Assembly (NCBI GenBank): GCA_016719755.1
Contig: JADJYM010000004.1
Coordinates: 288,686-352,685, forward strand
Direction: 5' to 3'
Length of the DNA stretch: 64,000 nt
From: Novosphingobium sp.
Lineage (GTDB): Bacteria > Pseudomonadota > Alphaproteobacteria > Sphingomonadales > Sphingomonadaceae
In this document: one piece after another, positions 2,318 through 33,380 of the stretch
Numbering within the stretch: position 1 is the first letter of the stretch
How the letters are laid out: the number at the start of each line of letters is the position of its first letter
Notes under the pieces: model-generated
What the model saw: only the letters and a program-made list of their open reading frames with translations
What the model was told of the DNA's origin: nothing
Databases searched by the model: none
Made by a program: the position numbers and the translations under genes

Positions 2318-2331
2318 TGCAATTCTTTGCA
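2318..2331. promoter_or_regulatory. LacI-type box, divergent AraC/P450 promoter (weak)
   Basis: TGCAATTCTTTGCA keeps the outer arms of the LacI-type consensus TGnAAnCGnTTnCA but has TC at the centre instead of CG. It lies 31 bases upstream of the AraC GTG and 75 bases upstream of the P450 ATG. It is the weakest member of the set listed at 5363, 7650, 10173, 24684, 24824 and 33203. Confidence 0.35.
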
Positions 2332-2405
2332 GAAATGCTGAGTAGCCAGGACCGCGCCTTGCGGGCATTCCCGTGTCAACCGCACAAACACGAGAGGATC
2401 CGGAC

Positions 2406-5362: not shown

Positions 5363-5376
5363 CGCAAGCGGTTCCA
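5363..5376. promoter_or_regulatory. LacI-type operator before the FAD monooxygenase
   Basis: CGCAAGCGGTTCCA (reverse TGGAACCGCTTGCG) matches the LacI/GalR-family pattern TGnAAnCGnTTnCA at nine of ten fixed positions. It lies in the 133-base gap between the LacI-family gene and the monooxygenase gene, and is the copy closest to the regulator gene. Confidence 0.6.
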
Positions 5377-5408: not shown

Positions 5409-6410
5409 TCAGGCGCTTTCGCGGGCGATCAACCGGAACCCGACATCGACCGAGCGCTGCGGCAGTTCCTCCCCCGCCGAATGCGCCCGGATCGCGGCAA
5501 GCACTTCGCGCGCGATGCGGGCGCCATCGATCTCGACCGTGGTGATCGTCGGGCGCATTTCGCCCGCCACCGAACTGTTGCCGAAGCCGATCACCGCGAT
5601 ATCGTCGGGAACGCGTAGCCCCGCCGCCTGAGCCTCGACGATCAGGCCCTGGGCCAGGTAATCGGAACCGCACACTACCACATCGGGCAGCAGCTCCATC
5701 CGGCGAATATCGGCAAACACGCGCCGACCGTGGCCGAAGCGGCTGGGGATGTCGACCTGCGCCTCTGTCACCGCGCCGCCGCCCTGGGCCTGCCATTCGG
5801 CCTTGAAGGCATCGCGCCGCATTGCCGCGCGCGTGCCGTTGGCCGTGACCAGGTGCGGCCGGCGATAGCCGCGCGACAGCACGAACCGCGCCACGTCGCG
5901 CCCGGCTGCATTGTGCGAAAAGCCGATGGCAAGGCCCGGCGGGTCTTCCGGCAGTTCCCATATCTGGATGAACAGCGCCGGACCGCGTCGCACCAGATCG
6001 GCCAGTTCCGCATCGAGCGGACCGGTGGAAATGATTGCGTCGACCCGGCGGCTGAGCGCGGCTCGCACCACGTCCTCGGTCCGGCCGATCCCGGTGCCGG
6101 TCAGGCCAAGCATGACGTTGAAACCCGCTGCCGCCAGTTCCCCGGTCATCGATTCGATCGTGTCATTGAAGATCGAATCGGTCAGATGCGGGATTAGCAC
6201 AGCAACCATCTTCGATTTGCTGGAGGCAAGCCCCCCGGCGAGCAGGTTCGGAATATAGCCGGTTGCCGCAATCGCCGCGCGGATACGCTCACCCGTGGCA
6301 GCGGCAACGACCTTGGGATTGTTGATGTAGCGGCTGACCGTCGCCGCCGACACGCCCGCGTGGAGCGCCACGTCGTCCAGCGTGGGATTCCTGCCGTTGT
6401 TCTCGCTCAT
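5409..6410 (-). CDS. LacI family transcriptional regulator
   Basis: A 333-residue regulator: N-terminal HTH at residues 10-35 (LDDVALHAGVSAATVSRYIN), hinge region with LLAGGLASSKS at about 57-67, then the periplasmic-binding-protein-like effector domain (VAVLIPHLTDSIFNDTIESM; VVVCGSDYLAQGL; VIGFGNSSVAGEMRPTITTV). It is closest in style to the GntR (gluconate) branch. LacI proteins normally sense sugars, so its place between P450 and monooxygenase genes is notable. It lies 26 bases downstream of the P450 gene, probably in one transcript. LacI-type 14-base sites occur before this cluster and before the TonB-receptor operons. Confidence 0.92.
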   Translation of the reverse strand: MSENNGRNPTLDDVALHAGVSAATVSRYINNPKVVAAATGERIRAAIAATGYIPNLLAGGLASSKSKMVAVLIPHLTDSIFNDTIESMTGELAAAGFNVMLGLTGTGIGRTEDVVRAALSRRVDAIISTGPLDAELADLVRRGPALFIQIWELPEDPPGLAIGFSHNAAGRDVARFVLSRGYRRPHLVTANGTRAAMRRDAFKAEWQAQGGGAVTEAQVDIPSRFGHGRRVFADIRRMELLPDVVVCGSDYLAQGLIVEAQAAGLRVPDDIAVIGFGNSSVAGEMRPTITTVEIDGARIAREVLAAIRAHSAGEELPQRSVDVGFRLIARESA

Positions 6411-6436: not shown

Positions 6437-7630
6437 CTACAGGAAGCGCAGCGGCACCACCAGCGGGCCGATTTCGGGCCAGCGGCTCATGGTGATATCG
6501 CCCGCCAGCTCGAAGCCGTTCGGACTGGCGGCCAGCAGTTCTTCCAGCGCCACGCGCAGCTGCATCCGCCCCAGGTGCAGCCCGGGGCAATTGTGCGGTC
6601 CGCGCCCGAAAGCCAGGTGTTCGCCGATGTTTGGGCGGTTCATGATGAACTGGTCCCCTTGCGGGAAGACGTCCTCGTCGCGGTTGGCGGAGCAATAGAG
6701 CAGCGCGATCGCCTCGCCTGCGGGGATCGTCCGTCCGCTCATCTCGACATCGTGCACGGCGGTGCGGGCAAATCCGCGATAGGGGGTGTAAAGCCGCAGG
6801 AATTCCTCGATCGCATCGGGCAGCAGCGCAGGGTTCGCGCGCAATTGCGCCTGAAGATCGGGATGGCGCGCCAGGTGAACGCAGATCGAGCCGATCATCA
6901 CCATCGGCGCGACCAGACCGACCAGCAGCACCTGCCGCACCGTGCCGACCAGCAGCTCGTCGGGCAGCGGTTCGCCCTCGTGCCGGGCCTCCAGCAAGGC
7001 GCTGGTGGGATCGAGCGCCGGATCCTGCGGGTGCTCCTTGCGGATCGCGATCAGCGCGCGCGCCATGTCGTAGAGGCGCAGGCTGGTTTCCTTCATCCGC
7101 TCGGGATGGTTCATGTGGACCGCCAGCACGAAGGCGCGGCCTGCATCGTGCAGCGTGTCGAGCCACTCCTCGGGCATCCGCATCCAGTCGCCGAAAACGT
7201 GGACCGGGAAGTGGCTGGAAAATTCCACGCAGATGTCGCCGCCGCCCCTGGCCGCCATCGGCGCAAGCAGACTGCGCGCCAGTTCCCGGGTGCGCGGAGC
7301 AAAGCCTTCCGAGCGCGCCGGGGAAAGCAGCGGGTTGAGCGCCTTGCGGTAGGGGGTGTGCTCGGGCGGATCGAGATGGAGCGGAGGGCGCCGCCCGGTG
7401 AAGGCCACCTTGGGCACCACGTTCTGCTTCGAAGTGATGAAGGTTGCCGAATCGCTGGCCGCGCGCTTGACGTCCTCATAGCGGGTGAGCGCCCAGAAGC
7501 CGCCGAGCCCGTCGGTGTGGGCAACCGGGCACTGGCTGCGCAGGCGGGCATATTCGCGGTGCGCGCTGTCGAAGTCTTCGGGCAGTTCGGGGTCGAAATC
7601 CTGGGGAACTTGCGTCATGGGCGGTTTCAT
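6437..7630 (-). CDS. Cytochrome P450 with non-canonical I-helix
   Basis: A 397-residue P450. The haem loop is FGRGPHNCPG with Cys near residue 348, the K-helix is EEFLRLY, and the haem-propionate region DPPEHTPYRKALNP is present. The I-helix reads VLLVGLVAPMVMIGS and lacks the (A/G)Gx(D/E)T motif that delivers protons for O2 activation. This occurs in P450s with unusual substrates or chemistry. The start at 7630 is preferred over 7618 by length; neither has a good ribosome site. The gene is divergent from an MFS transporter with a LacI-type box between them, and is followed by lacI. Confidence 0.9.
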   Translation of the reverse strand: MKPPMTQVPQDFDPELPEDFDSAHREYARLRSQCPVAHTDGLGGFWALTRYEDVKRAASDSATFITSKQNVVPKVAFTGRRPPLHLDPPEHTPYRKALNPLLSPARSEGFAPRTRELARSLLAPMAARGGGDICVEFSSHFPVHVFGDWMRMPEEWLDTLHDAGRAFVLAVHMNHPERMKETSLRLYDMARALIAIRKEHPQDPALDPTSALLEARHEGEPLPDELLVGTVRQVLLVGLVAPMVMIGSICVHLARHPDLQAQLRANPALLPDAIEEFLRLYTPYRGFARTAVHDVEMSGRTIPAGEAIALLYCSANRDEDVFPQGDQFIMNRPNIGEHLAFGRGPHNCPGLHLGRMQLRVALEELLAASPNGFELAGDITMSRWPEIGPLVVPLRFL

Positions 7631-7649: not shown

Positions 7650-7663
7650 TGCAAGCGCTATCA
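7650..7663. promoter_or_regulatory. LacI-type operator, divergent P450/MFS promoter
   Basis: TGCAAGCGCTATCA matches TGnAAnCGnTTnCA at nine of ten fixed positions. The divergent gap is only 58 bases, so a repressor here would cover both promoters or leaders: the site is 19 bases from the P450 start and 25 from the MFS start. Confidence 0.6.
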
Positions 7664-7688: not shown

Positions 7689-8996
7689 GTGACCGGACCA
7701 GCGCCCGCGGGACACGACATCGAGGCGCGGATCGGATCGAAAGTCATCCTGCGCCTGGTGATCCCGTGCGCCTTGTACATCCTGATCGGCGCGATCGACC
7801 GCACCAATGTCGGCTTTGCCGCGCTCGACATGAACCGCGCGCTGGGCCTGTCCAGCACCCAGTACGGGTTCGGCGCGGGCGTGTTGTTCATCGGCTACAT
7901 GCTGGCAAAATACCCCAGCGTCCTGCTGTACGAAGCGCTGGGAATGCGCCGCTGGCTGGCCGCGATCACCCTGGCCTGGGGGATCGCTTCGGGCGCGATG
8001 GCCCTGATCGCCAACGAATGGCAGCTTTATGCCCTGCGCGTGGCGATCGGATTTGCCGAGGGCGGGCTGTCTTCGGGGCTGATGCTTTACCTCAGCCACT
8101 GGGCGCCGGAACGCTACCGCGCCTCGATCCTGGCGATCCCGATCGTGTCGATTTCGGTCGCGCAGGTGATCGGCGCCCCGGTTTCCGGGCTGCTGCTGGA
8201 TTGGGACAACCCCTTCGGGATCGAGCCGTGGCGGCTGATGTTCGCGGTGGAGGCCCTGCCCGCGCTGGCGCTCGCGCTGTTCGCCGCGCTCTATTTCCCC
8301 GAAAGCCCGGCCCGGGCGCCCTGGCTGACCGGGCCGGAGCGGGACTGGCTGGGCGCCAATGTCAAAGGCGCGCGCAAGGCGCCTGAAAACGCCGAGGACG
8401 GTGCGCGCTGGGCGGCGCTGACCAGTCCGCTGGGGTGGACCTGCGCGGCGATCTGGTACTGCATCCTTGCCAGCAATTACGGGATCATGTTCTGGCTGCC
8501 GCAGGTGGTGAAAGGAATGGCGGACCTCACCTCCACCCAGACCGGAGTGATCGTTGCCCTGCCCTGGGCGGCAAGCGGGATCGGCCTGCTGCTCAACGCG
8601 CGCCACTCCGACCGCACGGGAGAGCGCTATCTCCACGTTGCCCTGCCCGCGCTGGCCGGGGGAACGCTTCTGCTCTGCGCCTACCTGCTGGGGCCGGGCC
8701 TGCCCGGGCTGGCCGCGCTGGTGCTTGGCGGGGCCTGCACGGGCTGCACGGTGGCCGCGTTCTGGGCCATCCCGACCCGGCTGCTGAAACCCGGCTCGCT
8801 GGCCATGGGGATCGTGATGATCAACATGATCGGCAGCCTGGCCGGGGCCAGCGTGCCGCCCCTGATGGGGCTGCTGAGACAGCAGACCGGATCGTTCCTC
8901 CCGCCCACCCTGCTGCTGTTCGGCATTGCGGTGACCTGCGCCGCGCTGTGCCTGATCGCGCGGCGGATGGACCCGCACGAACGGACCAATCGATGA
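7689..8996 (+). CDS. MFS transporter, anion:cation symporter type
   Basis: A 435-residue, 12-helix major facilitator protein of the ACS group (tartrate, 4-hydroxyphenylacetate and phthalate permease type). The family signature at the start of helix 1 is visible (RLVIPCALYILIGAIDRTNVGFAAL), as is FAEGGLSSGLMLYLSHWAPERYRA in helices 4-5. GTG at 7689 is chosen because GGGGAG lies nine bases upstream and it gives a normal short N-terminus. Members usually import organic acids with protons. It is the first gene of a two-transporter operon, overlapping the next by ATGA, under a LacI-type box. Confidence 0.88.
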   Translation: MTGPAPAGHDIEARIGSKVILRLVIPCALYILIGAIDRTNVGFAALDMNRALGLSSTQYGFGAGVLFIGYMLAKYPSVLLYEALGMRRWLAAITLAWGIASGAMALIANEWQLYALRVAIGFAEGGLSSGLMLYLSHWAPERYRASILAIPIVSISVAQVIGAPVSGLLLDWDNPFGIEPWRLMFAVEALPALALALFAALYFPESPARAPWLTGPERDWLGANVKGARKAPENAEDGARWAALTSPLGWTCAAIWYCILASNYGIMFWLPQVVKGMADLTSTQTGVIVALPWAASGIGLLLNARHSDRTGERYLHVALPALAGGTLLLCAYLLGPGLPGLAALVLGGACTGCTVAAFWAIPTRLLKPGSLAMGIVMINMIGSLAGASVPPLMGLLRQQTGSFLPPTLLLFGIAVTCAALCLIARRMDPHERTNR

Positions 8997-10162
8997 CAGC
9001 GCAGACTGAGCCAGCGCGGTCCGGCAACGCGGTGATCCTGGCCCTTGCCGCGATTGCGGCGCTGGGCTCGATGGCGATCCATATGCTGGTGCCCGCCCTG
9101 CCCCAGCTGGCCCGCGACCTGCGGCTCGAGGCGGGCGATGCCCAGCTGGCGGTCAGCGTCTACCTTGCGGGGCTTGGAGCGGGCCAACTGCTGGCGGGAC
9201 CGGCGGTCGACCGGATCGGGCGCCGCCCGGTGCTGCTGGCGGGAATCGCCGCCTATGTGCTGGGCGCGCTCGGCTCGGCGCTTGCCCCCGCGCTGCCCTG
9301 GCTTCTGGCCGCGCGCCTGCTCCAGGCACTGGGCGGCGCGGCCGGAGTGGTGACCGCGCGGGTGATGGTCGGCGATCTGTTCGGGCGCGAGGAGCAGGCG
9401 CGGCGCCAGGCGACGCTGATGATGGTGGTCCTGATCTCGCCCTCGGTCGCCCCGGTTGTCGGTGGGCTGCTGGCCGACCTTGGCGGCTGGCGACTGATCC
9501 CGGGGATGCTTGGCGTGAGCGCCCTTGCCGCGCTGGCCATCGCCTTGCCGATGCTTCCGGCGACGCGGGCCGCACCTCCCGCCTCGGCCCGCCCGTTCAT
9601 GCCCGATCTCTTGCGCCTGCTGCGCAACCGTCAGTTTCTTGCCGTCACGCTCACTCTCGCGGGTGGAAGCAGCACACTTTACCTGTTCCTCTCCAGTGCG
9701 GCATTCCTGCTGCATGATTTCGGCCTCAGCGAGAGCCAGTCGGGGCTGTGCTTTCTGGTCGTCGCGGCAACCAGCATCGCCGGAACCCGGCTGGTCGGCC
9801 CGCTCGGGCGGCGCACCGACGCGGTGCTGGCGGGGGTGGGCCTGATCCTGTCCGGCGCGACGATCGAACTGGCGCTGGCACTGGTCGGCGTGACCGGGCC
9901 GGCCGCACTGATTGCCCCGATGATGCTGGTGGGGCTTGGCGCGGGCGTGGTCGGGCCATCGGCCATCTCGATCCTGCTCTATGTCGAGGAAGGGCTGGCT
10001 GGCACCGCCACCAGCATCGCCGGGGCCACGCAGATGCTGGCCAGCGGCGTGGCAACAGTGGCATTCGCGCAGTTCGCGCCGGTCAGTCCGTTGCGCCTGG
10101 CCATCGCTCTGGCTATCGCCGCCAGCGGGGCCTTTGCGGGCGCGATTGCCCGGCGCAGCTGA
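8993..10162 (+). CDS. MFS transporter, Bcr/CflA-type DHA1 family
   Basis: A 389-residue MFS protein with about 12 hydrophobic segments. Motif A is DRIGRRPVLLAG at about residues 64-75, and the antiporter-type motif C region is VVLISPSVAPVVGGLLADLGGW near 145-166. This is the layout of DHA1 (Bcr/CflA) proton-driven drug exporters. The start overlaps the upstream transporter stop by four bases, so they are coupled. One importer and one exporter-type protein in the same operon suggests uptake of a substrate with removal of a toxic intermediate. The direction of transport is inference. Confidence 0.85.
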   Translation: MTAQTEPARSGNAVILALAAIAALGSMAIHMLVPALPQLARDLRLEAGDAQLAVSVYLAGLGAGQLLAGPAVDRIGRRPVLLAGIAAYVLGALGSALAPALPWLLAARLLQALGGAAGVVTARVMVGDLFGREEQARRQATLMMVVLISPSVAPVVGGLLADLGGWRLIPGMLGVSALAALAIALPMLPATRAAPPASARPFMPDLLRLLRNRQFLAVTLTLAGGSSTLYLFLSSAAFLLHDFGLSESQSGLCFLVVAATSIAGTRLVGPLGRRTDAVLAGVGLILSGATIELALALVGVTGPAALIAPMMLVGLGAGVVGPSAISILLYVEEGLAGTATSIAGATQMLASGVATVAFAQFAPVSPLRLAIALAIAASGAFAGAIARRS

Positions 10163-10172: not shown

Positions 10173-10186
10173 TGCAAGGGCTTTCA
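10173..10186. promoter_or_regulatory. LacI-type operator before TonB receptor operon 1
   Basis: TGCAAGGGCTTTCA matches TGnAAnCGnTTnCA at nine of ten fixed positions. It is followed 10 bases later by a type A MarR dyad, so this receptor promoter may integrate two regulators. Confidence 0.58.
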
Positions 10187-10234: not shown

Positions 10235-12430
10235 ATGACCAGTTTCAACCGCGGCGCTCTGGCGCTGCTGCTTTCCGGCACGGCGCTTGCCCTGCCCGGT
10301 ATCGCCCAGGCCCAGGAAGCCGCGCAAGGCGGTCTGGACGAGATCCTGGTCACCGCCGAACGTCGCGAACAGAGCCTGCAGGACGTGCCGATCTCGGCCA
10401 CGGTGCTGACCGGCGCCGACCTTGAAAAGCGCGGCGTCACCAACATCAACGATATCCAGCAGGTCGCTCCGTCGATCGCGATCAACACCTTCAACCGTTC
10501 GACCTTCATCAACATCCGCGGCGTCGGCATTGCCCAGTCCGCGCCGACTTCCAACCCCGGGGTCGCCTATTACATCGACGGCCAGCTGATCCCGCACGAG
10601 CAGTTCATCGGCCACAGCTTTTACGATATCGCCAGCATGGAAGTGCTGCGCGGGCCGCAGGGCACGCTGACCGGGCAGAATTCCACCGGCGGCGCGATCT
10701 ACGTTCGAACGCCCGCCCCGGAAATGGATGCGACTTTCGCGATCGGCGACCTGACTGTGGGCAACTACGACCGCTTGCGCGGTGTGCTGGCGGCCAACCT
10801 TGGCGGGCAGGATGCCGCCGTGCGCATTGCCTATATCCACGAACAGCGCGACAGCTACACGAAGAACATCTCGGCCAGGGCGCAGAGCCAGCCCGGCAAC
10901 CTCAACATGGACGCGGTGCGCGCCAGCTTCCGCTTCATCGGCGCCGACGGCAAGCTGACGGTTGACCTGCGCGGCGAATATTTCAACGTCCAGACCGACA
11001 ACAACGCGGTCAAGCGGCGCGGCGACACGGTCAGCACCAATCCGTTCGAAATCCAGGAAGACGGCCGCTCCTACCAGAACCAGGTCGGCTACCGCATCGG
11101 TGCCGAGGCGAAGTACGAACTGTCCGACGCGGTCGCGGTGCGCGGCATGGTTTCGTGGCAGGACGGCTATACCCACGATCAGACCGATGGCGACCGCACC
11201 GATACGGCGCTGGCCGTGCCCGCCAACCTTTCGACCGGCAGCGCCAACACCGCGACCTATCCGGGCCGGGTCAGCCGGGGCACCACCGATTTCCGCACCA
11301 CGCTGGCTGAAATCAACCTGCTGTCGAACGGCAAGGGCCCGTTCCAGTGGGTGATCGGCGGCTTCCTGATGGACGAGGATGTGCCCGTCACCCTGCTGCG
11401 CGACAACCGCAGCACACTGGATTTCGTGGCATCGAACAGCAACATCATCACCAACGCCAAGAACACCTCGCACTCGCTGTTCGGGCAGGTGAACTGGTTC
11501 GCGACCGAACAGCTGGAACTGATCGCGGGCGGACGTTACAGCTGGGACAAACAGGTCTACACCCGTCTCGACGTGCCGCGCGGCCCGGGGCAGACCTTCG
11601 TTCTGCCCTATGTCAGCCAGATCGCGACCAGCCAGCTGACCGGCAAGCTGGGGGTCAACTATCACCTTGGTGACGATACGCTGCTCTATGTCAGCGCCTC
11701 GAAGGGCTACAAGGCCGGCGGCGTCAACCTGACCCCCGACACCCCCAACTTCCTGCCGGAACGCAACTTCGTCTACGAAGCCGGGTTCAAGACCGAACTG
11801 CTCGACCGCCACCTGCGCGTCAACGGATCGGTGTTCTATTCGGACTACAAGGACATCCAGCTGTCCAGCCTGGTCGGCGGGTTGCCCGTCACCCAGAACG
11901 CTCTGGCCGGTAACGCCAAGGGCGCGGAACTGGAAGTGACCGGCAAGTTCGGCGGGCTGGGCTTCAACTTCGGGCTTGGCTACCTTGATGCCAAGTTCGC
12001 CAATTCGGCCTGCATTTCCGATACCAATTCGCCCGGCACCGATACCGGCTGCGCCACCAACCTGCGCTTCGTGCCGGAAGGCCGCGTCCTGCCGTTCTCG
12101 CCCGAATGGACGATCAACGCCGGGATCCAGTACACCATCCCGGCCGGTAGCTTCGAAGTGACCCCGCGCCTGCAGTGGTCGCACCTGGCCGAGCAGTACG
12201 CCACGCCGTTCCCCAGCCTGAACACGCTGGTCCCGGGGCGCGACCTGTTCGATGCGCGGCTGACCTTCGATTTCGGCAAGAACTACACGGTCGAAGCCTA
12301 CGTCAACAACCTGACCAACAAGACCTACATCGCGACGCAGATCCAGAACAGCTCCAGCGCGAACGGCGGCATCATCTATGGCGCCCCGCGCACGTTTGGC
12401 CTGCGGCTCAAGGTTCAGGTCGGCAAGTAA
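10235..12430 (+). CDS. TonB-dependent outer-membrane receptor 1
   Basis: 731 residues. A signal peptide (cleavage after about residue 24, AQAQEA) is followed by the TonB box region ILVTAERREQS, the plug domain (VPISATVLTGADLEKRGV; IRGVGIAQSAPTSNPGVAYYIDG; MEVLRGPQGTLTGQNSTGGA) and a beta-barrel ending in the typical FGLRLKVQVGK. It imports a scarce or bulky compound across the outer membrane using TonB energy; the fecA/pupB-type signalling extension is absent. GAGGGAGGA precedes the ATG. It heads an operon with a di-haem protein and an OmpA-like protein, and its promoter carries LacI-type and MarR-type boxes. Confidence 0.93.
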   Translation: MTSFNRGALALLLSGTALALPGIAQAQEAAQGGLDEILVTAERREQSLQDVPISATVLTGADLEKRGVTNINDIQQVAPSIAINTFNRSTFINIRGVGIAQSAPTSNPGVAYYIDGQLIPHEQFIGHSFYDIASMEVLRGPQGTLTGQNSTGGAIYVRTPAPEMDATFAIGDLTVGNYDRLRGVLAANLGGQDAAVRIAYIHEQRDSYTKNISARAQSQPGNLNMDAVRASFRFIGADGKLTVDLRGEYFNVQTDNNAVKRRGDTVSTNPFEIQEDGRSYQNQVGYRIGAEAKYELSDAVAVRGMVSWQDGYTHDQTDGDRTDTALAVPANLSTGSANTATYPGRVSRGTTDFRTTLAEINLLSNGKGPFQWVIGGFLMDEDVPVTLLRDNRSTLDFVASNSNIITNAKNTSHSLFGQVNWFATEQLELIAGGRYSWDKQVYTRLDVPRGPGQTFVLPYVSQIATSQLTGKLGVNYHLGDDTLLYVSASKGYKAGGVNLTPDTPNFLPERNFVYEAGFKTELLDRHLRVNGSVFYSDYKDIQLSSLVGGLPVTQNALAGNAKGAELEVTGKFGGLGFNFGLGYLDAKFANSACISDTNSPGTDTGCATNLRFVPEGRVLPFSPEWTINAGIQYTIPAGSFEVTPRLQWSHLAEQYATPFPSLNTLVPGRDLFDARLTFDFGKNYTVEAYVNNLTNKTYIATQIQNSSSANGGIIYGAPRTFGLRLKVQVGK

Positions 12431-12434
12431 GGCG

Positions 12435-22398: not shown

Positions 22399-22453
22399 AT
22401 CCCCACACTCCCTCATGCGAAACGATGCCCCGCCCGGCGCGGGAGAACATTGG

Positions 22454-23488
22454 TCATGGCGTTTCGACCACCGCACGCTGTGCCGCGCGCCGCGCGGCAT
22501 GGCGCGGGGCCAGCGAAAGCAGGACGATCGCGGCGATCAGGATCGCGGCTCCGGCCAGTTCGGCGGGGCGCGGCATCGGCTGGCTGAACATCCAGGCCAG
22601 CAGGACCGATCCGCCGATCCCGGCAACCAGGCTCGCCGCGCGTTCCAGCGCCACGCAATAGGCGTTCTCGTTGGCATCGAGCAGGATCACGATCGCCACC
22701 ACCCCGATCATCGCAAGGGTCAGGCCGATCAGGAACAAGGGCAGGATCACGCCGTCGCTCCACACGCCGACGAAGCCGAAAGTCAGCTGCCCGGCCTGAC
22801 CGCCGATGCCGGAAGCCGAAACCGCCGCCAGCGCCGCCACCGACAGCGGCAGCGCGATCATCTTTTCCTCGACAAAGTAGCGCCGCACGCTCGCCGGATC
22901 GCCGTCCTTCGAAATCCGGTTCATCACCGCGAGACGGATGAAATAGCCCAGGGTGTAAAGCACCACCGTCAGGATCGCGATGGGCGGCAGGTAAAGCCCG
23001 CCCCGATCGTAGAGAGTGATGATCAGCGCCGCCATGACCATCGCCAGCGCCACCCATGACCACCAGCGCACCTTGCGGCCGAACATCAGATCGACGATCG
23101 GCGCGATGATCAGCACGTCGCCGCGCATGATCAGCTGGATGAACGGGATCGAGACGCCTTCAAAGGTGAAGGACAGCGGCACGGTGAACAGCACCAGCGC
23201 CGTGCCGATGCCCGACAGGAAAGTCATCCAGGTCGGGCACGGCACCCTGAACCCGCCGATCTTCACGGCATTGGCATCGCGGTGCCAGCCCGACAGCCAG
23301 ATGAACAGGTAGGTCAGCAGCCAGTTGAAGATCAGCGTTGCGGGCAGCGTTTCCAGACCGGTCAGCGGCCGCCCCAGCACCGCGTGCGGCACCTGCGTCA
23401 CGTAGCGCGTCAGCATCACGTTGGGCAGGTAGAGCACCAGATACAGCCCGACCCAGGCCTCCAGCGACAAGGCGCGGCGCGCACTCAT
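22454..23488 (-). CDS. Multi-helix membrane transporter, DMT/EamA-like
   Basis: 344 residues with about ten predicted membrane segments, two repeated halves of five (for example FLSGIGTALVLFTVPLSF, VALAMVMAALIITLY, AILTVVLYTLGYFIRLAV, LIGLTLAMIGVVAIVILL). This is the layout of drug/metabolite superfamily exporters, but I see no strong signature, so the family is likely rather than certain. It overlaps the CapA gene by four bases and precedes receptor 2 by 55 bases. In this operon it may move a product or substrate across the inner membrane. Confidence 0.6.
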   Translation of the reverse strand: MSARRALSLEAWVGLYLVLYLPNVMLTRYVTQVPHAVLGRPLTGLETLPATLIFNWLLTYLFIWLSGWHRDANAVKIGGFRVPCPTWMTFLSGIGTALVLFTVPLSFTFEGVSIPFIQLIMRGDVLIIAPIVDLMFGRKVRWWSWVALAMVMAALIITLYDRGGLYLPPIAILTVVLYTLGYFIRLAVMNRISKDGDPASVRRYFVEEKMIALPLSVAALAAVSASGIGGQAGQLTFGFVGVWSDGVILPLFLIGLTLAMIGVVAIVILLDANENAYCVALERAASLVAGIGGSVLLAWMFSQPMPRPAELAGAAILIAAIVLLSLAPRHAARRAAQRAVVETP

Positions 23489-24621: not shown

Positions 24622-24649
24622 CACCGCGTCCCGTTCACGGGGTCCGATT

Positions 24650-24683: not shown

Positions 24684-24697
24684 TGCAAGCCCTTTCA
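24684..24697. promoter_or_regulatory. LacI-type operator before the capA-receptor 2 operon
   Basis: TGCAAGCCCTTTCA matches TGnAAnCGnTTnCA at nine of ten fixed positions. It is almost identical to the site before receptor operon 1 (TGCAAGGGCTTTCA). It lies 63 bases upstream of the CapA start, just outside the type B sites. Confidence 0.57.
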
Positions 24698-24823: not shown

Positions 24824-24837
24824 TGCAAGGGCTTGCG
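24824..24837. promoter_or_regulatory. LacI-type operator before the exported hydrolase gene
   Basis: TGCAAGGGCTTGCG matches TGnAAnCGnTTnCA at eight of ten fixed positions and is close to the sites at 10173 and 24684. It lies 53 bases upstream of the hydrolase ATG. Confidence 0.48.
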
Positions 24838-24890: not shown

Positions 24891-25862
24891 ATGCTGAAGC
24901 GATGGAACACACTGACAAGCCTGGTTGCGGCCCCTTTGATGGCGCAGCCGGCACCGGCACCGGCCCCCGCCGCAGCACCCCCGGTCGATGCGGCGCGCGC
25001 AGCCTATGAAGCGATGCCCAACGGCCCGGGCAGCGGCCCCTTTGCGGCGGTGATGGAGGTCGATTCCGGCCTGGCCAACCATGTCGTCTACCGCCCGGCG
25101 GACCTGTCCCGCCTGGGCGGGCGCAAGCTTGGTGTGCTGGTCTGGGGCAATGGCGGCTGCCGCGACGATGGAGCAAGCGCCCGCCAGCACCTGCTGGAGA
25201 TCGCGTCCCACGGCTATCTCGTGATCGCCCCCGGGCGGGTGCTGAGCGGCCCGACCGCAACGGAACGGCGTGCCGAACGTGTGCCTGATGCCAGCGGCAA
25301 GCTTCCTCCCGTCGCCACCACGACCAGGGCCGTGCTGGCCGGGCTTGACTGGGCGCTGGCCGAAAACGGCCGCAAGGGCAGTCGCTTCAAGGGCAGGATC
25401 GACCCCGCGCAGGTCGCGGTGGCCGGCCATTCCTGCGGCGGGCTTCAGGCGCTGCAGGCTGCGGGCGACAAGCGCATCCGGGCCGTGCTGATCCACAACA
25501 GCGGGGTCTTTGCCGATGGTTCAAACCCGATCCAGGGGATCACGGTCGACAAGTCGCTGCTGAACACGCTGCACACCCCGGTGGTCTACTTCCTGGGCGG
25601 CCCGGGCGACGTCGCCTTTCCCAACGGCAGCGACGATTACCGCAAGATCGGTCATGTCCCCGCCGTGCTGGTCAATTTCCCCGTGGGCCACGGCGGCACT
25701 TTCCTGAAACCCAATGGCGGGGCAGTCGCGGCGGCGGCGGTCGACTGGCTTGAATGGCAATTGCGCGCAGACAAGGCCGCCGCGCGCACTTTCACCGGCG
25801 CGAACTGCCGCCTGTGCAACGGCCCCGAGGGCTACACCATCGAACGCAAGGGGTTGCGCTAG
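24891..25862 (+). CDS. Exported alpha/beta hydrolase
   Basis: 323 residues. The N-terminal hydrophobic segment followed by a Pro/Ala-rich stretch (residues 8-32) suggests export. The nucleophile elbow is VAVAGHSCGGLQAL near residue 183, and the C-terminal His is in FPVGHGGTF near 267. The oxyanion region LGVLVWGNGGC is well placed. The overall pattern resembles dienelactone-hydrolase/PET-hydrolase-like exported esterases. CGGGAG lies before the ATG. The gene stands alone, rightward, with a LacI-type box upstream, and converges on the double-hydrolase gene at 25907. Substrate unknown; an ester of the island's target compound is a fair guess. Confidence 0.75.
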   Translation: MLKRWNTLTSLVAAPLMAQPAPAPAPAAAPPVDAARAAYEAMPNGPGSGPFAAVMEVDSGLANHVVYRPADLSRLGGRKLGVLVWGNGGCRDDGASARQHLLEIASHGYLVIAPGRVLSGPTATERRAERVPDASGKLPPVATTTRAVLAGLDWALAENGRKGSRFKGRIDPAQVAVAGHSCGGLQALQAAGDKRIRAVLIHNSGVFADGSNPIQGITVDKSLLNTLHTPVVYFLGGPGDVAFPNGSDDYRKIGHVPAVLVNFPVGHGGTFLKPNGGAVAAAAVDWLEWQLRADKAAARTFTGANCRLCNGPEGYTIERKGLR

Positions 25863-25906: not shown

Positions 25907-28615
25907 TTATTCGCACTTCCCGCCGCGCAGGCAGGGCCGCAGCATTGGCGCGGGCTGGTGGTGAATCGTCCCGGCGGGCGGGTTCGGCCAGCGGCCCTCG
26001 TCGATCCGGCGTTCCAGCTGCCGCAGCGCGGTGATCGCCGCTTCCTTGCTTATCCCGCAATGCCCGGCGGCATCGAGCCACAACCCCTGGGCCATGCGCG
26101 GCGGGGCGGCATCGAGATAGGCCTGCTGAAGCGAGGGTGAAGTCGCCCCGTCGCCGATGGTCTGGAGCGAGATCACCGGCACCAGCGGGTGGCCATTGGG
26201 CGTGTAATGGCGGCGCATATAGTCCACCGCCGCAGGCCTGGCGGCAATGCGCGGCGCGGCGGCGAGCCGGGCCAGATCGGCATCGAGGCTAAGCCCGGCC
26301 CTGCGATACAGGGCTTCCACCATCGCGCGGCGGCCCGAGCGCTGGAGCTGTGCGGCATAGTCCACCCCGGTGTTCCACGAGAACACACCGCCCGCGCGGC
26401 GTTCCTGATCCTGCCGGGGCAGGAACACACCCATAACGAAGGCCGCGGCGATCTCTTCCAGCTGCGCCTCGTAGTCGGTGTCGGCAGGGCGGGCCATCTC
26501 GCGCCGGGTCCAGCCGGGAATACCGCCCAGCACGCCCGCCAGCGCCAGCCGGGCGCGACCTTCCGGGGTTTTCAGCGCTTCGCCCACGGCAGCCTGCGCC
26601 TTGCGGCCATTGGCCATGTCATCGGCGATCCCGACCAGTTCCAACCCGGCATCCGGCGCGGCAAGGGTGCGGAAGGCAAAGGCCCCGTCCAGCGCCATGT
26701 TCATCATGCCCAATGCACCGCCGATCGAGGGGCACATGGCGATGGCCCCGGCAATCTTCGGCTTCGGATGCTCGGCCAGCGCGGTACTGACCAGGCCGCC
26801 CATCGATTGCCCCCAGGCGATCGTCCGGCGCGGCTGGCCATAGACTTTCGCGAAAGCGTCGATGGTCGCGCGCTGGGCGGGCACGGCTTCGGCCAGCGCC
26901 CAGCCCTCGGCACCATAGTTCGATCCCGCCAGCGCATAGCCCTGCTCCAGCAGCGCCTGCTTCCATACCGACGGCGCGGCATCGGGCGCGGCCCGTTTCG
27001 GCGAATAGCCCCGGCCCCACAGCAGCAGGGTGCCGTTCCACCTGGCCGGAACTTCGGCGGCCCAGTCGGCCCCGGCGGGTGTCTTGCCGGTTGCGGTCGC
27101 GGGCTTGCTGCCGCGTCCCTGCGGGAAGGCGCGCGCGGCATTGCGCGCCGCCAGCCGGGTCTGGGCATCGGCGTCTGCCTGACGGAGCCAGCCCTGCCGC
27201 ACCAACTGTGCCTGTCGCGCGCGGAACTTTGTCATGTAGTCCGCCGCTCCGCCCGGATAGGCCCTGGCCAGCAAGGCCGGTTCGACCGGCAGGCGGCGCA
27301 GGTTGCGGCGCGGCACCTTGCCGCCGCACAGTTCCGGCGCGGGTTCGCCATAGCGGACCAGCGGCAGGTCTAGCTGCGCCACTCGCACCCCGCCAAGCGG
27401 ATTGCCGAAGGCGTCGCGGACAAAATCCTTGCCATCAGCGGCAACCTGCAGGCGCAGCGCGCGCGGCGGGGCCTGGCCTGTTTCGACCCACCGGTCGAGG
27501 TTCGCCAGCGCAGCCTGCGCCACATCGCGCATCGGCACGTCGGTATCTTCCACCGTGCAGGCGACCAGCGGCTCGACCGCCGGATGACGCCGCGCCTGCA
27601 ACTGGACCGAAGCGGCGCGGACCTGGCCGGACAGGCCGGAATCGCCATGGCTGGTGCCGCCAAGTTCGTAGATCCGGTGCCCGCCGCTGACCGCATCGCT
27701 TTCCGGCCGCTGCGGGTGGACGTTGGTGATGGCTTCCATCTCGCTGGTCAGTTCGATCACCGGACGGTCGATCGTGCGGAGCAAATCGCGGGTGCGGTCT
27801 TTGACCGGATCGGTCGAATTGAGCGGCGTATGTCCCGCCGGCACCGACCCTGCCGAAATCCCGATCAGGTAGCCATCGACCACCGGACTGCCATCGGCGC
27901 GGCGGTAGCGATCGTGGAAGCCGAAGTTGATCCAGCTGCGGATCGTGCTGCCCAGAAACGACCAGCCCGAGAAATAGACCCGGCGGACCTTCAGTCCGGC
28001 CAGCGGCCCGGTCTTGCCCGGATCGCGCAGGAGGCTGGCGGCCTGACCCATCACGTCCCAGCGGATGCCGTCATCCTCGCCCCAGCGGAAAGCGGCGTAG
28101 CGTTGCGGATCGTACCACGGGAAAAGCCTGGGCGTGGTCACTGGCCACTGCGCGCTCGAGCGTTCGCGTGTGCCCGCGTCCCCACCGATCGCCAGCAGCG
28201 CATAGGCGCTGCCGCTCGAAAGAATCAGGTTGTCGATCCGCCCCCATTGCACCGAAGCGAGACTGGGATGGTTGAAGCCCATCTGGACGATCCCGTTGAA
28301 TTTCCGCGGATCGCGGGGACGGACGATGACCAGCCGGGTGGTATAGGCATTGCGCGAACTGCGCACGGACAGACTGCCGTCTGGATTCTCGCCATAGATG
28401 TTCGCCTCGCCCGAGAGGAGATACTCTTCCTGGACGTAACCGGCGGCCTTGAGCGCCGCGTCTTCGGCCGTCCCGGCAAGAACCACGGGCGAGAAGATCC
28501 TCGACTGCGCGCTTTCCGGGATCGGACCGGTCCAGCGCTGCTCCGCCGCTCCGGCAGGTGCGGCAAGCGCGGTGGCTAGGACAACGGACAGCAACAGCGC
28601 GGGCAGCTTTGGCAT
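25907..28615 (-). CDS. Exported tandem alpha/beta-hydrolase fusion
   Basis: 902 residues with a signal peptide (residues 1-24). Residues about 30-430 match the large alpha/beta-hydrolase-domain family typified by GYVQEEYLLSGEANIYG, a GWS nucleophile elbow (FSGWSFLGS, Ser219) and a C-terminal His (ELGGTSHGDSG). Residues about 500-870 form a second hydrolase with elbow GQSMGG (Ser604) and His in DAAGHCGIS. A linker of low complexity joins them. Single-domain relatives are usually 400-500 residues, so this is a true fusion in one open frame. ATG at 28615 is preferred over an upstream TTG. It is third in the receptor 3, CocE-type, fusion operon. Confidence 0.78.
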   Translation of the reverse strand: MPKLPALLLSVVLATALAAPAGAAEQRWTGPIPESAQSRIFSPVVLAGTAEDAALKAAGYVQEEYLLSGEANIYGENPDGSLSVRSSRNAYTTRLVIVRPRDPRKFNGIVQMGFNHPSLASVQWGRIDNLILSSGSAYALLAIGGDAGTRERSSAQWPVTTPRLFPWYDPQRYAAFRWGEDDGIRWDVMGQAASLLRDPGKTGPLAGLKVRRVYFSGWSFLGSTIRSWINFGFHDRYRRADGSPVVDGYLIGISAGSVPAGHTPLNSTDPVKDRTRDLLRTIDRPVIELTSEMEAITNVHPQRPESDAVSGGHRIYELGGTSHGDSGLSGQVRAASVQLQARRHPAVEPLVACTVEDTDVPMRDVAQAALANLDRWVETGQAPPRALRLQVAADGKDFVRDAFGNPLGGVRVAQLDLPLVRYGEPAPELCGGKVPRRNLRRLPVEPALLARAYPGGAADYMTKFRARQAQLVRQGWLRQADADAQTRLAARNAARAFPQGRGSKPATATGKTPAGADWAAEVPARWNGTLLLWGRGYSPKRAAPDAAPSVWKQALLEQGYALAGSNYGAEGWALAEAVPAQRATIDAFAKVYGQPRRTIAWGQSMGGLVSTALAEHPKPKIAGAIAMCPSIGGALGMMNMALDGAFAFRTLAAPDAGLELVGIADDMANGRKAQAAVGEALKTPEGRARLALAGVLGGIPGWTRREMARPADTDYEAQLEEIAAAFVMGVFLPRQDQERRAGGVFSWNTGVDYAAQLQRSGRRAMVEALYRRAGLSLDADLARLAAAPRIAARPAAVDYMRRHYTPNGHPLVPVISLQTIGDGATSPSLQQAYLDAAPPRMAQGLWLDAAGHCGISKEAAITALRQLERRIDEGRWPNPPAGTIHHQPAPMLRPCLRGGKCE

Positions 28616-28649
28616 CGGGGTCAAGGCCTGACAGAAGTGTTGGAGAAAG

Positions 28650-30404
28650 TCAGCGTGCGGGAACCACCGGCAGGCTGATGCTGGAAGGGCGGGCCTTGTC
28701 GCTGATCAGCACGATCTGGCTGGGCTGGGCCTGCGCGTCGCGGGCGCGCTCGCGGTGATCGCTGCCAGTGAAGGTGAACTGGATGCGGTGGCCCTTGGCG
28801 AACACGTAGGAGGTGGGCATCAGGTCGAACTGCAAGCGCACCGGCTCGCCCGGGCGCAGCCACTCGGCATCCTCGGCCCAGGCGCGGTGCCAGGGCAGGC
28901 CGGGCAGCGCCCAGGGTGCCGGGTGAAGCTTGCGCAGCGCGGCCTTGAGCCGCCCTTCGGTGACGACCCGGACGGTCCCGTCCGGGGCAACGTCCTCAAG
29001 ATAGACGAACAGATTGGCGTCCGGCGTATCGGCAGCGATCCAGACGTCGGCCAGCCCGTGGCCGGTCACCTCGACCGGGGCCCGCAGCACCTTGCCCGCC
29101 AGCGACAGCCCCTTGCCCGGCAGGTGGCACGGCTGGACGGTCGCTCCCGAACCCCCTTCGGGGCAGGTGACGGTGTAATCCACCGCGAAGGCCCGGTGCA
29201 GCGCCGGGCCGGTCGCGGCGCCCTCGGAAATCCCCTTGCCCGTCAGGGTGAAAGGCACCTGCTGCGCCTGTGGCAGCGGCCACTGGCTGGCGGAACGCCA
29301 CTCCCCCGCCCTGGTGACGAAATAGTGGATTGGCGGATCGCGGTCGATCCCGGTGTCAATGCCCTTCAGGTGGCGGTCGAAGAAGCGGTGCGCCTCTTCA
29401 ACCAGCGCAAAGCCATCGTTCTGGCAGTGCAGCCAGTCACCGATCAGGATGCGGGTGCCGGGGATGTTCATCCGGGCGATCAGGCCCTGGTCGCGCAGTT
29501 CGTCGCGCCAGCCGCCGACGATATAGAGCGGCACCTTTCCGCGCAGAATCTGCGGCAGATAGCTTGATCCGCTGCCCTCGGCCCAGAACCGGCTCTGCAC
29601 CGAAGGGGCAAAACTGTCACGGTAGGGCAGCGACTTCCACAGCTCGAACAGCGGGACCATCGCCTGGTGCTGCCCGGCCGCCTTGCGCAGTTCCTGCCGG
29701 TCCGGGTCGGTATCGACCGGGGGGATCGCCATGTCCTGCTCGATCGTGCGCGTCGGCCCGGTGCCCCACTGGGCAAAGATCCCGCCGCGCCGCATGGCAT
29801 CGTACTTGTTCCACGAAAAGCAGCCCGCGAAGACCGCTTTCAGGTGCGGCGAATTGACCGTCATCGCGTGGAGCGCGGCGTCTCCGGTGTTGGAGCAGCC
29901 GTACATCCCGATGCTGCCGCTGGACCACGGCTGGGCGGCCAGCCAGTCCATCACCTCATAGGCGTCGTGCGCCTCGTTGCGGTCATGATAGCCGCGCATC
30001 GTGCCGAAGGACTGGCCATTGCCGCGCCGCGCGACCTGGACCACGACATAGCCATGATCGGTTAGCGAGGGGATCGCCGCGAACCCGCCCGCGCGCGGCC
30101 CGGTGCCATCGGCGAGCTGCTGGGTGGCGCTGAGGGTGTGGTGCCAGATGACCGGAAAGCGGCCTTCTACCGGCTTTCCGCCCATCGCCGGGCGGGCAAC
30201 GGTAACCGCCAGCTTCACCCCGTCGCGCAGGGTCAGGTAGAAGCTGGACTTGGCCTGCTCGGAGTAGAGCCGCGCCGGGCGGTAGTGCCCGAACGAGGAC
30301 GGCGCCGCCGCCGGAGCCGGTGGCACCAGCGAGGCGGCATCCTGCGCCGCCGCCCCTGCGGCGAGCAAGCTCAGCGCAAGGGCGGCCAGCGCGGGACGGA
30401 TCAC
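28650..30404 (-). CDS. Exported CocE/NonD family hydrolase
   Basis: 584 residues with a signal peptide (residues 1-20, GAAAQD). The N-terminal two thirds is an alpha/beta hydrolase of the X-Pro dipeptidyl-peptidase/CocE type: FYLTLRDGVKLAVTVARP, WSSGSIGMYGCSNTG (nucleophile Ser), IVGGWRDELRDQG and LIGDWLHCQNDG. The C-terminal jelly-roll domain carries ADVWIAADTPDANLFVYLEDV. Such enzymes hydrolyse acyl esters or amides (cocaine esterase, glutaryl-7-ACA acylase). The GTG start overlaps the receptor 3 stop, so it is co-translated with it. An ester bond in the imported compound is the likely target. Confidence 0.88.
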   Translation of the reverse strand: MIRPALAALALSLLAAGAAAQDAASLVPPAPAAAPSSFGHYRPARLYSEQAKSSFYLTLRDGVKLAVTVARPAMGGKPVEGRFPVIWHHTLSATQQLADGTGPRAGGFAAIPSLTDHGYVVVQVARRGNGQSFGTMRGYHDRNEAHDAYEVMDWLAAQPWSSGSIGMYGCSNTGDAALHAMTVNSPHLKAVFAGCFSWNKYDAMRRGGIFAQWGTGPTRTIEQDMAIPPVDTDPDRQELRKAAGQHQAMVPLFELWKSLPYRDSFAPSVQSRFWAEGSGSSYLPQILRGKVPLYIVGGWRDELRDQGLIARMNIPGTRILIGDWLHCQNDGFALVEEAHRFFDRHLKGIDTGIDRDPPIHYFVTRAGEWRSASQWPLPQAQQVPFTLTGKGISEGAATGPALHRAFAVDYTVTCPEGGSGATVQPCHLPGKGLSLAGKVLRAPVEVTGHGLADVWIAADTPDANLFVYLEDVAPDGTVRVVTEGRLKAALRKLHPAPWALPGLPWHRAWAEDAEWLRPGEPVRLQFDLMPTSYVFAKGHRIQFTFTGSDHRERARDAQAQPSQIVLISDKARPSSISLPVVPAR

Positions 30405-33073
30405 AGCTTGACGCGTACGCTGGCCGCGATCACCCGGCCGATCGGATCGGCGGCGGTGGCGTCATAGCCGCCGCTGCCGTTGCCGTTGGGCGCGATGTTC
30501 ACATAGGGCGGCTTCTGGTCGAACAGGTTGCGCACCTCGATCCCGAAGGTCAGTCCGCGTTCGATCGCCCCCGAACTGTCAAGATCGCCGACCTTCCAGG
30601 TCAGTCCCAGATCGACGGGGTTGAAGCTGGAAACCTGCTGCACCGGATTGGCGAAGGTGTTGTTGTAACCGCCCACGTGCGTCAGGGTCATGCGGGCGCT
30701 GAACGGACCGTGATCCCAGGTCAGGCTGGCGCGTGCCTTGAACTTCAGTGGGTTGAAGATGTTGTTGAGCTGGTTCGTCAGCGGAGCGGTGGGCGTGATG
30801 GCAACCTTGTAGGTCGTCAGGTAAGTGCCAGCCGCGCTGAACGACAGCGTGTCCTTGTCCGAGAGGTCGGTGCGGTAGTTCAGCGTGAAATCAATACCGC
30901 GCGTCTTGGAGACGCCCAGGTTCTGGCTCCGCCCATCGACGAACACGGTGATCGAGGGGATCCCGCCCGAAGGCAGCGAACCCACAAATGCGATCCCGGC
31001 ATTGTTGTAGTTCTGGATCTGCGTGGCCGCCGCCGTGCCGGTGTAGAGAATGTTGGTACCGGTGTAGAGCGAAGCCGAACCCAGGATCGAAAGGTTCGAC
31101 AGGTTGGCCAGAACCTGGTTCTCGTAATTCACGTCCCAATAGGTGATCCCCAGACGCAGACCCGGCAGCGGATCGAAATCGGCGCCGATCGACCAGGTGC
31201 TCGCGGTTTCGGGTTTGAGGTTCAGGTTCTGGCCCGAAAGCGCCACGCCGGTGATCTGGCCGCCGCCCGGATTGGCATAGTTCTGGATGAACAGGTTGTT
31301 CGAGTTGCCATAGATTTCAGGGATCGTTGGTGCGCGGAACGAAGTGCCATAGCTGCCGCGCAGCTTGACGCCCTGGACCGGAACCCAGTTGATCCCGAAC
31401 TTGGGATTGGTGGTGTTGCCGACGTCACTGTACTTGTCGTGACGGACCGCCGCGTTCAGTTCAAGGCGTTCGAAGCCAGGGATGGCGTTGCCCGAGCCGA
31501 ACACCGGCACGAACAGTTCCGCGTACATCGAATCGACATTGCGCCCGAAGTAGCGCCAGGTCAGCGGAGTGGTCGGCCCGCCGCGCGCGGAACCCAGCGC
31601 AACGCTGAATTCCTGTCGCTCGTAACCCGTCGCCAGCTTGACCGAGCCGCCCGGCAGATCGAACAGCGAACCGTTGAGCCGCGCTTCGTAGGTCTTGAGC
31701 TTGCCGTTGGTCGGCGCCAGGAAGATCTGGTTGGCGAGCGTTGCGTAAAGCGCGGTGTTGGTGCGGCCCAGCCCATAGACGTCGAGCGCCGTGGCCGGAT
31801 CGCTGCTGATCAGCGCCGCGTTCACCGCCGCGTTGTTGAGCCCGGTATACGAGGCCGAATAGTCGTTGGTCTTGCCATAACCGGCCAGCGCTTCGAACTC
31901 GAAGTCGTGCGGCAGCTTGATCGTGATCTTCGGCGTCACCTGCCAGCTTTCCGCATAGCCCGACGAATCGTTCGCGGGCAGTTCGCGGAACATGTAGTCG
32001 ACCGTGTAGCTGGTGCCGGTGAACCCGGCAGGGCGCACGAAGAACGCGTTCGACTGCGGCACGGTCACCGTGTTGCTGGAATAGGCCGAGCGGCGGAAGA
32101 ATTCGCGCTTGGAATAGAAGGCGTCGAGCGAGAAGCTGAGCCAATCGGTCAGCTCGAACCGGCCAGTCCCATTGACCGAATTGTACGACTGACGCGGGGA
32201 AAGGTCCTGCCCGGCCTGAAGGTCGCACTTGTTCAGGGTTCCCGCCACCAGCGATCCGGCGGTGGCTTGGGTCACCCCGGCAGAGGGGATCGCATAGGTC
32301 TGTCCGCCAGCCCGGATCGCGCCCGGATAGCAGCGCGTGGTGCGCCCGTCCGGCCCGCCGAACGCGGTCTGGTTGCTGGTGAAGAACACCCGGTCATCGC
32401 CCGACAGGTTGGAACGCTCGACGTGCTCGAAGGCGAGCATGATCTGGCCGCGATCGAACACCTTGCCCACAGCGGCGCCGATCGAATATTCGTGAAACGC
32501 GCCGTCGTCCGACACACCGCCGCGGGCAAAGGCCTCAACACCGTTGAGGCTGCGGCGCGGGATCAGGTTGACCACGCCCGCGACCGCATCCGAACCATAG
32601 ATCGCCGATGCGCCGTCTGCCACGACCTCGACGCGCTCGACGCCCAGCGAAGGCAGGACCGAGGGATCGATCGAGCGGCTGTTGTTGGTCACCCGGTGGC
32701 CGTCGATCAGCACAAGGGTGGCATAGGGGCCGATCCCGCGCAGGTTGACCGTGTTGCCATAGACGATGTTGCCCGAGCCGCCGGACTGCCCCCGCGAATT
32801 TTCGCTGACACCCAGGTCAAAGTTCTGGGGAATTTCCTTGATCATGCGATCAACGGTGACGGCGCTGGAGGTTTCAATCTCTGCGCGGCCCAGCGTGGTG
32901 ACGGCCGATCCCACCGGCGCCTCGCCGCGCACGCGGCTGCCGGTTACGACGATGGCATCGTCTTCGCCGTCGGCCTCCGGCTGGGCCTGCGCCTGGGCGT
33001 GGGTGGGAACGAGCAGCGCCGCGGCCAGAGCCAGCATGGAACCGCGCGATGTGATAGTGGTGAACCTGGACAT
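30401..33073 (-). CDS. TonB-dependent outer-membrane receptor 3
   Basis: 890 residues. Signal peptide (residues 1-28, ending AQAQAQ), TonB box DAIVVTGSRVRGEAPVGS, plug with VDRMIKEIPQNFDLG, VNLRGIGPYATLVLIDGHRV and VEVVADGASAIYGSDAVAGV, and a barrel ending IAASVRVKL. ATG at 33073 has GGGAGGGA at good spacing; translation could in principle begin further upstream, but that would bury the signal peptide. It heads the operon with two exported hydrolases. It shares plug motifs with receptor 2, so the two probably arose from one ancestor or handle related ligands. Confidence 0.93.
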   Translation of the reverse strand: MSRFTTITSRGSMLALAAALLVPTHAQAQAQPEADGEDDAIVVTGSRVRGEAPVGSAVTTLGRAEIETSSAVTVDRMIKEIPQNFDLGVSENSRGQSGGSGNIVYGNTVNLRGIGPYATLVLIDGHRVTNNSRSIDPSVLPSLGVERVEVVADGASAIYGSDAVAGVVNLIPRRSLNGVEAFARGGVSDDGAFHEYSIGAAVGKVFDRGQIMLAFEHVERSNLSGDDRVFFTSNQTAFGGPDGRTTRCYPGAIRAGGQTYAIPSAGVTQATAGSLVAGTLNKCDLQAGQDLSPRQSYNSVNGTGRFELTDWLSFSLDAFYSKREFFRRSAYSSNTVTVPQSNAFFVRPAGFTGTSYTVDYMFRELPANDSSGYAESWQVTPKITIKLPHDFEFEALAGYGKTNDYSASYTGLNNAAVNAALISSDPATALDVYGLGRTNTALYATLANQIFLAPTNGKLKTYEARLNGSLFDLPGGSVKLATGYERQEFSVALGSARGGPTTPLTWRYFGRNVDSMYAELFVPVFGSGNAIPGFERLELNAAVRHDKYSDVGNTTNPKFGINWVPVQGVKLRGSYGTSFRAPTIPEIYGNSNNLFIQNYANPGGGQITGVALSGQNLNLKPETASTWSIGADFDPLPGLRLGITYWDVNYENQVLANLSNLSILGSASLYTGTNILYTGTAAATQIQNYNNAGIAFVGSLPSGGIPSITVFVDGRSQNLGVSKTRGIDFTLNYRTDLSDKDTLSFSAAGTYLTTYKVAITPTAPLTNQLNNIFNPLKFKARASLTWDHGPFSARMTLTHVGGYNNTFANPVQQVSSFNPVDLGLTWKVGDLDSSGAIERGLTFGIEVRNLFDQKPPYVNIAPNGNGSGGYDATAADPIGRVIAASVRVKL

Positions 33074-33380
33074 GTCTTTCCCTCCCGCTCGAAAGCGCTT
33101 CCTGAACCCTCCATCCGGGCGGGAGTATCGTGCTGCGGCGGGTCCTGGACCACCCGCCGTATCGTCCTCTCCACTGCCCCCGGCCGCCGCCTGACGTACC
33201 GGTGAAGGCGCTTGCACCTTCAGGCGAGGCGAACTTCTCCCAATTAGTGGAAAAAGTCAACTATACTCGATCGGGACTTTTTTCGGCTGGAAACTGCCGA
33301 TTGCCGTGGTTTTGCGGCTAGCGATTGCCAAATTTAATCGTTCGGTTAAGGCTGCGTCGAAACAAGGAGGATTCGCGATC
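33074..33380. promoter_or_regulatory. Divergent receptor 3 / acyl-CoA dehydrogenase promoter region with LacI- and MarR-type boxes
   Basis: A 307-base divergent region without a gene. TGAAGGCGCTTGCA (33203-33216) fits the LacI-type consensus at nine of ten positions, and a second possible site, GAAAGCGCTTCC (33091-33102), overlaps the receptor leader just before its ribosome site. A type A MarR dyad lies at 33244-33264 (core GTGGAAAAAGTCAACTAT). An AT-rich stretch TGCCAAATTTAATCG lies near 33330, and the AAGGAGG ribosome site of the acyl-CoA dehydrogenase at 33364. Both operons could be controlled together from here. Confidence 0.55.

Follow-up and report, generated by a model that had tools for sequence, protein, structure and literature searches.

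A conserved palindromic operator at the promoters of a Novosphingobium catabolic island goes with the LacI-family gene of the island

A 14-base even palindrome, TGNAAG-SS-CTTNCA, recurs at the promoters of a catabolic island in a 64-kb stretch of Novosphingobium DNA (the window), is kept upstream of orthologous genes in relatives, and goes with orthologues of a LacI-family gene that lies in the island. The motif, its location in promoters, its conservation and its link to the LacI clade are direct results of computation, while binding by the LacI-family protein P0001, repression, the extent of the operons and their induction we infer. We consider it very likely that P0001 is an autoregulated local repressor, which would act through these operators on five firm and two probable transcription units and be released by an inducer. 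The result delimits a regulon in a catabolic island that had not been characterised in Novosphingobium or its relatives; the common operator would mark the genes belonging to one pathway and the repressor would provide a handle for finding the island substrate. The sites and genes are listed by position in the window.

2318..2331, + strand, seventh site of the preliminary description, unsupported as a LacI operator (matrix 11.3)
5363..5376, + strand, weak candidate upstream of an FAD monooxygenase gene (CGCAAGCGGTTCCA; matrix 5.6)
5409..6410, - strand, LacI-family repressor P0001, 333 aa, GntR-like (Pfam LacI and Peripla_BP_3 over cut-off)
6437..7618, - strand, cytochrome P450 (P450b), first gene of the P450b-LacI unit (Pfam p450)
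7650..7663, + strand, operator between P450b-LacI and MFS1-MFS2 (TGCAAGCGCTATCA; matrix 20.6; identical in seven loci)
7689..10162, + strand, MFS1 and MFS2 transporters (Pfam, NCBIfam)
10173..10186, + strand, operator of the TonB1-haem protein-OmpA-like unit (TGCAAGGGCTTTCA; matrix 22.2; upstream of TonB1 in 10/10 relatives)
10235..14710, + strand, TonB1 receptor, CxxCH (haem c-like) protein and OmpA-like protein
14805..24624, - strand, PGA_cap, membrane protein, TonB2, tannase-like, ALDH, DUF3237 and MmgE/PrpD (Pfam)
24684..24697, + strand, operator of the PGA_cap unit (TGCAAGCCCTTTCA; matrix 22.2; upstream of PGA_cap in 6/11 relatives)
24824..24837, + strand, operator of orf24891 (TGCAAGGGCTTGCG; matrix 20.0; upstream of orf24891 in 5/5 relatives)
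24891..25862, + strand, orf24891, PETase/lipase-like hydrolase (nearest PDB entry 2fx5, a lipase, E 3.8e-17)
25907..33073, - strand, TonB3 with CocE/S15-type and Abhydrolase_10 hydrolases, probable target unit (Pfam)
33203..33216, + strand, probable operator between the TonB3 and acyl-CoA dehydrogenase units (TGAAGGCGCTTGCA; matrix 13.2; intergenic)
33381..37486, + strand, two acyl-CoA dehydrogenases, nitronate monooxygenase and SDR, probable target unit (Pfam)

The operator motif

All seven sequences of the preliminary description are present in the window where it placed them, and their intergenic position was confirmed from ORFs, Pfam matches and start codons checked by eye. The pattern it gave, TGnAAnCGnTTnCA, fits none of the six main sites exactly, five having one mismatch and 24824 two, and the palindrome TGNAAG-SS-CTTNCA is the better consensus. 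At up to one mismatch TGnAAnCGnTTnCA matches the window six times against 0.96 expected, a number reached in none of 100 shuffles; one of these matches, at 21552, falls within TonB2 and is absent from the original list.

A scoring matrix was trained on 41 sites of relatives, with the window itself, L031 and the 94% relative L029 left out; the training sites had been chosen with the window's own pattern, for which permuted palindromes provide the control. The four best matches of this matrix in the window are 10173 and 24684 (22.2 each), 7650 (20.6) and 24824 (20.0), and there are four matches of at least 14 in the 64 kb compared with 0.15 expected under a first-order Markov null. Lower scores are those of 33203 (13.2), 2318 (11.3), 63907 (10.6) and 5363 (5.6). 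Matrix and footprints alike have the even palindromic form with TGnAA...TTnCA arms that marks LacI/GalR operators, and the first assignment of the recurring site to this type is supported. At the half-site centre the 41 sites have C at a frequency of 0.82 and G at 0.16; the window sites 10173, 24684 and 24824 have GG or CC.

Not all seven sites are of equal standing. Four (10173, 24684, 7650 and 24824) are firm and 33203 is probable, while 5363 is weak and 2318 unsupported, and in place of the at least six transcription units first claimed we count five firm and two probable ones. No comparative support for 33203 was found in the relatives' loci, and the first acyl-CoA dehydrogenase (ACAD1), queried in frame, matched nothing in the other loci at E 1e-20. 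The counterpart of 5363 in L029, and in L029 only, has the better form TGGAACCGCTTGCA; no comparative support was found beyond that locus. The 2318 site lies in the AraC/P450a divergent promoter and was rejected as a LacI operator, its palindrome not being kept in L033. In the window (2300-2335), L029 and L033 the P450a promoter, which diverges from that of the AraC gene, retains a block GATCGAAAAgTgCAA, possibly an AraC site.

TGCAAGNNCTTNCA occurs exactly at two places in the 3.7-Mb genome, both in the window (10173 and 24684). TGNAAGNNCTTNCA at up to one mismatch has 37 places, seven of them in the window (binomial P 3e-6, a post hoc value as the window was chosen for these sites), and its backward control has 72 places per strand, so the pattern is not enriched genome-wide and the signal is local. 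Five of the seven window places are intergenic compared with three of the 30 outside, or seven of 30 if start-proximal places are counted (Fisher P 0.002 and 0.025, respectively), where start codons were checked by eye in the window and the outside places were classed by a rough ORF caller. The matrix was then applied to these 37 one-mismatch places, among which 10173, 24684, 7650 and 24824 were the top four, followed by C15:529918 (18.0), just before a PhaR-like gene; three further outside places reach 14.

The 37 one-mismatch places, most of them inside genes, and the still more frequent backward control are what would be seen if the sites were chance matches in a G+C-rich genome, and 2318 and 5363 do look like chance. 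As an account of the sites we judge this extremely improbable, given the relatives-only matrix, the permuted palindromes and the conservation of sites inside diverged flanks; for the four firm sites the first two of these already argue against it.

Conservation and the link to the LacI gene

We collected 19 loci (8 + 11) comprising a LacI orthologue and its surroundings, and in most of them the island is recognisable though gene sets and order vary; LacI, P450b, MFS1, TonB1, the haem protein, OmpA-like, PGA_cap, the membrane protein and TonB2 are seen across the loci, as are tannase, PrpD, ALDH and DUF3237. We searched the 300 bp before orthologues for sites with at most one mismatch, leaving out L029 and entering divergent promoters once per gene. 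In relatives with LacI the site is upstream of TonB1 in 10/10, P450b in 14/14, MFS1 in 8/8 and orf24891 in 5/5, and its presence is partial for PGA_cap (6/11), LacI (11/18, which includes half genes cut at stretch ends), PrpD (2/10) and MFS2 (2/8). No site was found upstream of the twelve other genes with an orthologue, P450a, AraC, MarR2 and TonB3 having one orthologue each. For nine target genes, picked after a first look at the relatives' data, 68 upstream regions gave 62 matches, compared with at most one for each of 29 control palindromes made of the same half-site letters; 72 non-target upstream regions gave four.

The early proposal that the operator goes with the LacI gene at 5409-6410 is upheld by its neighbourhoods. 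In 18 of the 19 loci with a LacI orthologue an island gene has a site in the 400 bp before it, and in 17 of the 19 there is one in the 120 bp before LacI, or before a P450b that directly precedes LacI (distances measured to tblastn match starts), i.e. the regulator gene stands behind its own operator, as is characteristic of the LacI/GalR family. A 76% identical LacI (6213-7193) is present in L032, a short MAG contig without the island, and no operator-like site was found there. As a control we took nine loci of genomes that have a haem-protein or P450b homologue and in which a LacI orthologue is absent at E 1e-30. These are mostly without the site, with two one-mismatch matches in about 179 kb, one of them in G032, 123 bp before the orf24891 homologue; the control is not perfectly clean, since two of the nine exceed matrix 14 (G032 18.1, G232 15.9). 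Of the 12 genomes whose LacI is at least 49% identical, 11 have P450b, compared with 3 of 286 others (Fisher 1e-16); for the haem protein the numbers are 7 of 12 and 7 of 286 (Fisher 6e-8). In some of the LacI genomes P450b identity is only 46-49%, as it is in the genomes without LacI. This comparison of sequences makes the assignment of the sites to the LacI protein well supported.

The two MarR genes and one AraC gene in the island (396-2407), and a second LacI-family gene at C11:161457, the only other one in the genome, allow the view that the sites belong to another regulator and that the LacI neighbour is a coincidence. However, in the stretches of 11-40 kb surveyed in the 19 loci a MarR1 orthologue (at least 45% identity) occurs only in L029, and those of MarR2 and AraC are confined to L029 and L033, whereas the site is present in 18 of the 19 and follows the LacI orthologue from locus to locus. 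The second LacI-family protein has a different recognition helix (GVSQSTVSRALAG vs GVSAATVSRYINN). We regard control by another regulator as very unlikely.

Promoter architecture

The situation of the operators at promoters points to repression. In the TonB1 promoters of L030, L031, L033 and L035 the operator is contained within the 17-nt spacer from TTGAC(A/T) to TAA. The operator at 7650, TGCAAGCGCTATCA, is unchanged across the window, G111, L029, L030, L031, L033 and L035, in flanks that average 38% identity over five non-redundant loci. Over the 40 bp either side, nothing is invariant in the seven loci except TCGAC and two single columns upstream, and TCGAC stands exactly 17 nt before TATCA. 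TCGAC-N17-TATCA(T/A/G) reads as a putative MFS1 promoter, over which the operator would lie. In each of the seven loci one and the same base breaks the symmetry of the operator; in G098, an eighth locus with this arrangement, the base is symmetric and TCGAC is absent at that place. Given the kept TCGAC-N17-TATCA in the seven and the symmetric base without TCGAC in G098, the deviant base is best read as a probable part of the divergent MFS1 -10 inside the operator. A general search for -35 and -10 elements around the operators gave no common geometry, only these TonB1 (four loci) and MFS1 (seven) cases. TGnTAT downstream of the operators was tried as an extended -10 and rejected; of its six matches, at offsets 31-32, several are the P450b start codon.

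In the mechanism we propose, P0001 would, when inducer is absent, bind TGNAAG-SS-CTTNCA at core promoters and block RNA polymerase. Its firm targets would be P450b-LacI (autoregulation), MFS1-MFS2, TonB1-haem protein-OmpA-like, PGA_cap-to-PrpD and orf24891, with the TonB3 and acyl-CoA dehydrogenase units as probable further targets. An inducer arriving with the island substrate, or made from it, would then release P0001, so that uptake, oxidation and ester hydrolysis would be switched on together.

Target genes and the ligand of P0001

Judging by its gene families, the target set looks suited to taking up and degrading a natural product that carries ester bonds. The tannase-like enzyme of the PGA_cap unit is tannase/feruloyl-esterase-like, MFS1 is nearest to D-galactonate and 4-hydroxyphenylacetate permease models (below their cut-offs), and the other transporter of the pair is of the Bcr/CflA efflux type. 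The haem c-like assignment in the TonB1 unit is based on weak matches and two CxxCH motifs. The PGA_cap-to-PrpD genes (14805..24624), with gaps of up to about 50 bp, probably form one operon. A glycosylated aromatic had been suggested as the ligand source, an idea left without support since no glycoside hydrolase family was reported among the 41 window proteins scanned with Pfam, which represent all but a few small genes up to about 52.8 kb.

P0001 is full-length, with an N-terminal LacI HTH and a C-terminal periplasmic-binding-like domain (PF00356 and PF13377 over cut-off), and its nearest PDB entries are 3e3m and 3h5o. LacI-type repressors are usually sugar sensors, and no sugar pathway was recognisable in the regulon. 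The nearest family model over the whole length is NCBIfam NF052440, Pseudomonas GntR, with which P0001 has LacI-type DNA-binding and ligand domains in common. P0001 falls short of the equivalog cut-offs that would identify it as the gluconate regulator GntR (214.7 bits vs 400 for NF052440; 112.9 of 433 bits for PRK14987), and unlike those of Pseudomonas GntR its targets are not gluconate genes. In the ligand domain P0001 has G277-N278 where 3h5o has N-D, and LacI and PurR have Asp at the matching position; these residues are too little to name a ligand.

With GntR and IdnR as the nearest NCBIfam models, and a D-galactonate transporter model nearest to MFS1, P0001 might sense a sugar acid such as gluconate, as its GntR-like relatives do, which would place the island under carbon-status control. 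Yet the GntR and IdnR models score far below cut-off and there is no gluconate pathway gene among the annotated targets, and this reading seems to us unlikely, though not implausible. Our own suggestion on the ligand is a tentative one, to which we give somewhat less than even weight: that this sphingomonad LacI clade has left sugars and senses a non-carbohydrate natural product or its ester or acid intermediate, and that its operators are tuned promoter by promoter, the off-consensus base doubling as the divergent transporter -10 and so coupling repression and promoter strength within 14 bases. If the inducer is not a carbohydrate, P0001 would be one of the few LacI-family regulators that serve neither sugar nor nucleoside metabolism.

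Relation to known systems

Of the 182 LacI groups to which PMC4052901 assigns a pathway, 176 regulate carbohydrate metabolism; the non-carbohydrate groups named there are those of nucleosides, purines and neotrehalosadiamine, and its main text contains neither 'sphingomonad' nor 'aromatic'. Set against this dominance of sugar pathways, the initial remark that a LacI-type operator governing a P450, TonB receptor and esterase island would be unusual holds good. The proposed P0001 regulon has in common with the local LacI-family regulons described in that text an even palindromic operator, mostly close upstream, and autoregulation; it differs in that no carbohydrate or nucleoside pathway is recognised here, and in the centre of the TonB1 operators, GG or CC in 8 of 12 loci, where the same text gives CG for 1173 of 1303 LacI-family regulators. 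The regulon is of a kind already known in the LacI family, with an unusual set of target genes. PheR of Sphingobium sp. SHPJ-2 (PMC13273656) is a sphingomonad repressor, deletion of which raises catabolic genes and TonB-dependent receptors, but it belongs to the IclR family and has another operator and another pathway. A literature search, with subscription papers mostly outside its scope, found nothing tied to this regulator or island.

Other features of the island

TCAACTRT occurs four times in the window, with 0.70 expected: before MarR1 (354-361), before TonB1 (10210-10217), between TonB3 and ACAD1 (33257-33264), and inside TonB1 (11655). One possible reading is an operator of MarR type that overlaps the LacI regulon. 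Against an expectation of 0.16, there are three copies of TAGCAATA: two in the PGA_cap promoter (24650-24670), at a distance of 13 bp, and a third ahead of the ALDH gene (18190-18197). Two DUF3237 proteins are encoded in the one island, in separate units (3573-3986 and 16189-16752). The nitronate-monooxygenase-like gene (window 35710-36685) lies in two frames, 35616-35921 and 35918-36685, which is either a real frameshift or an assembly error. Further along, window 43091-48441 carries TauD-type dioxygenase, formyltransferase, GCV_T-type and MTHFR-type genes, a set that we take to resemble the tetrahydrofolate-dependent O-demethylation genes for methoxylated aromatics in sphingomonads.
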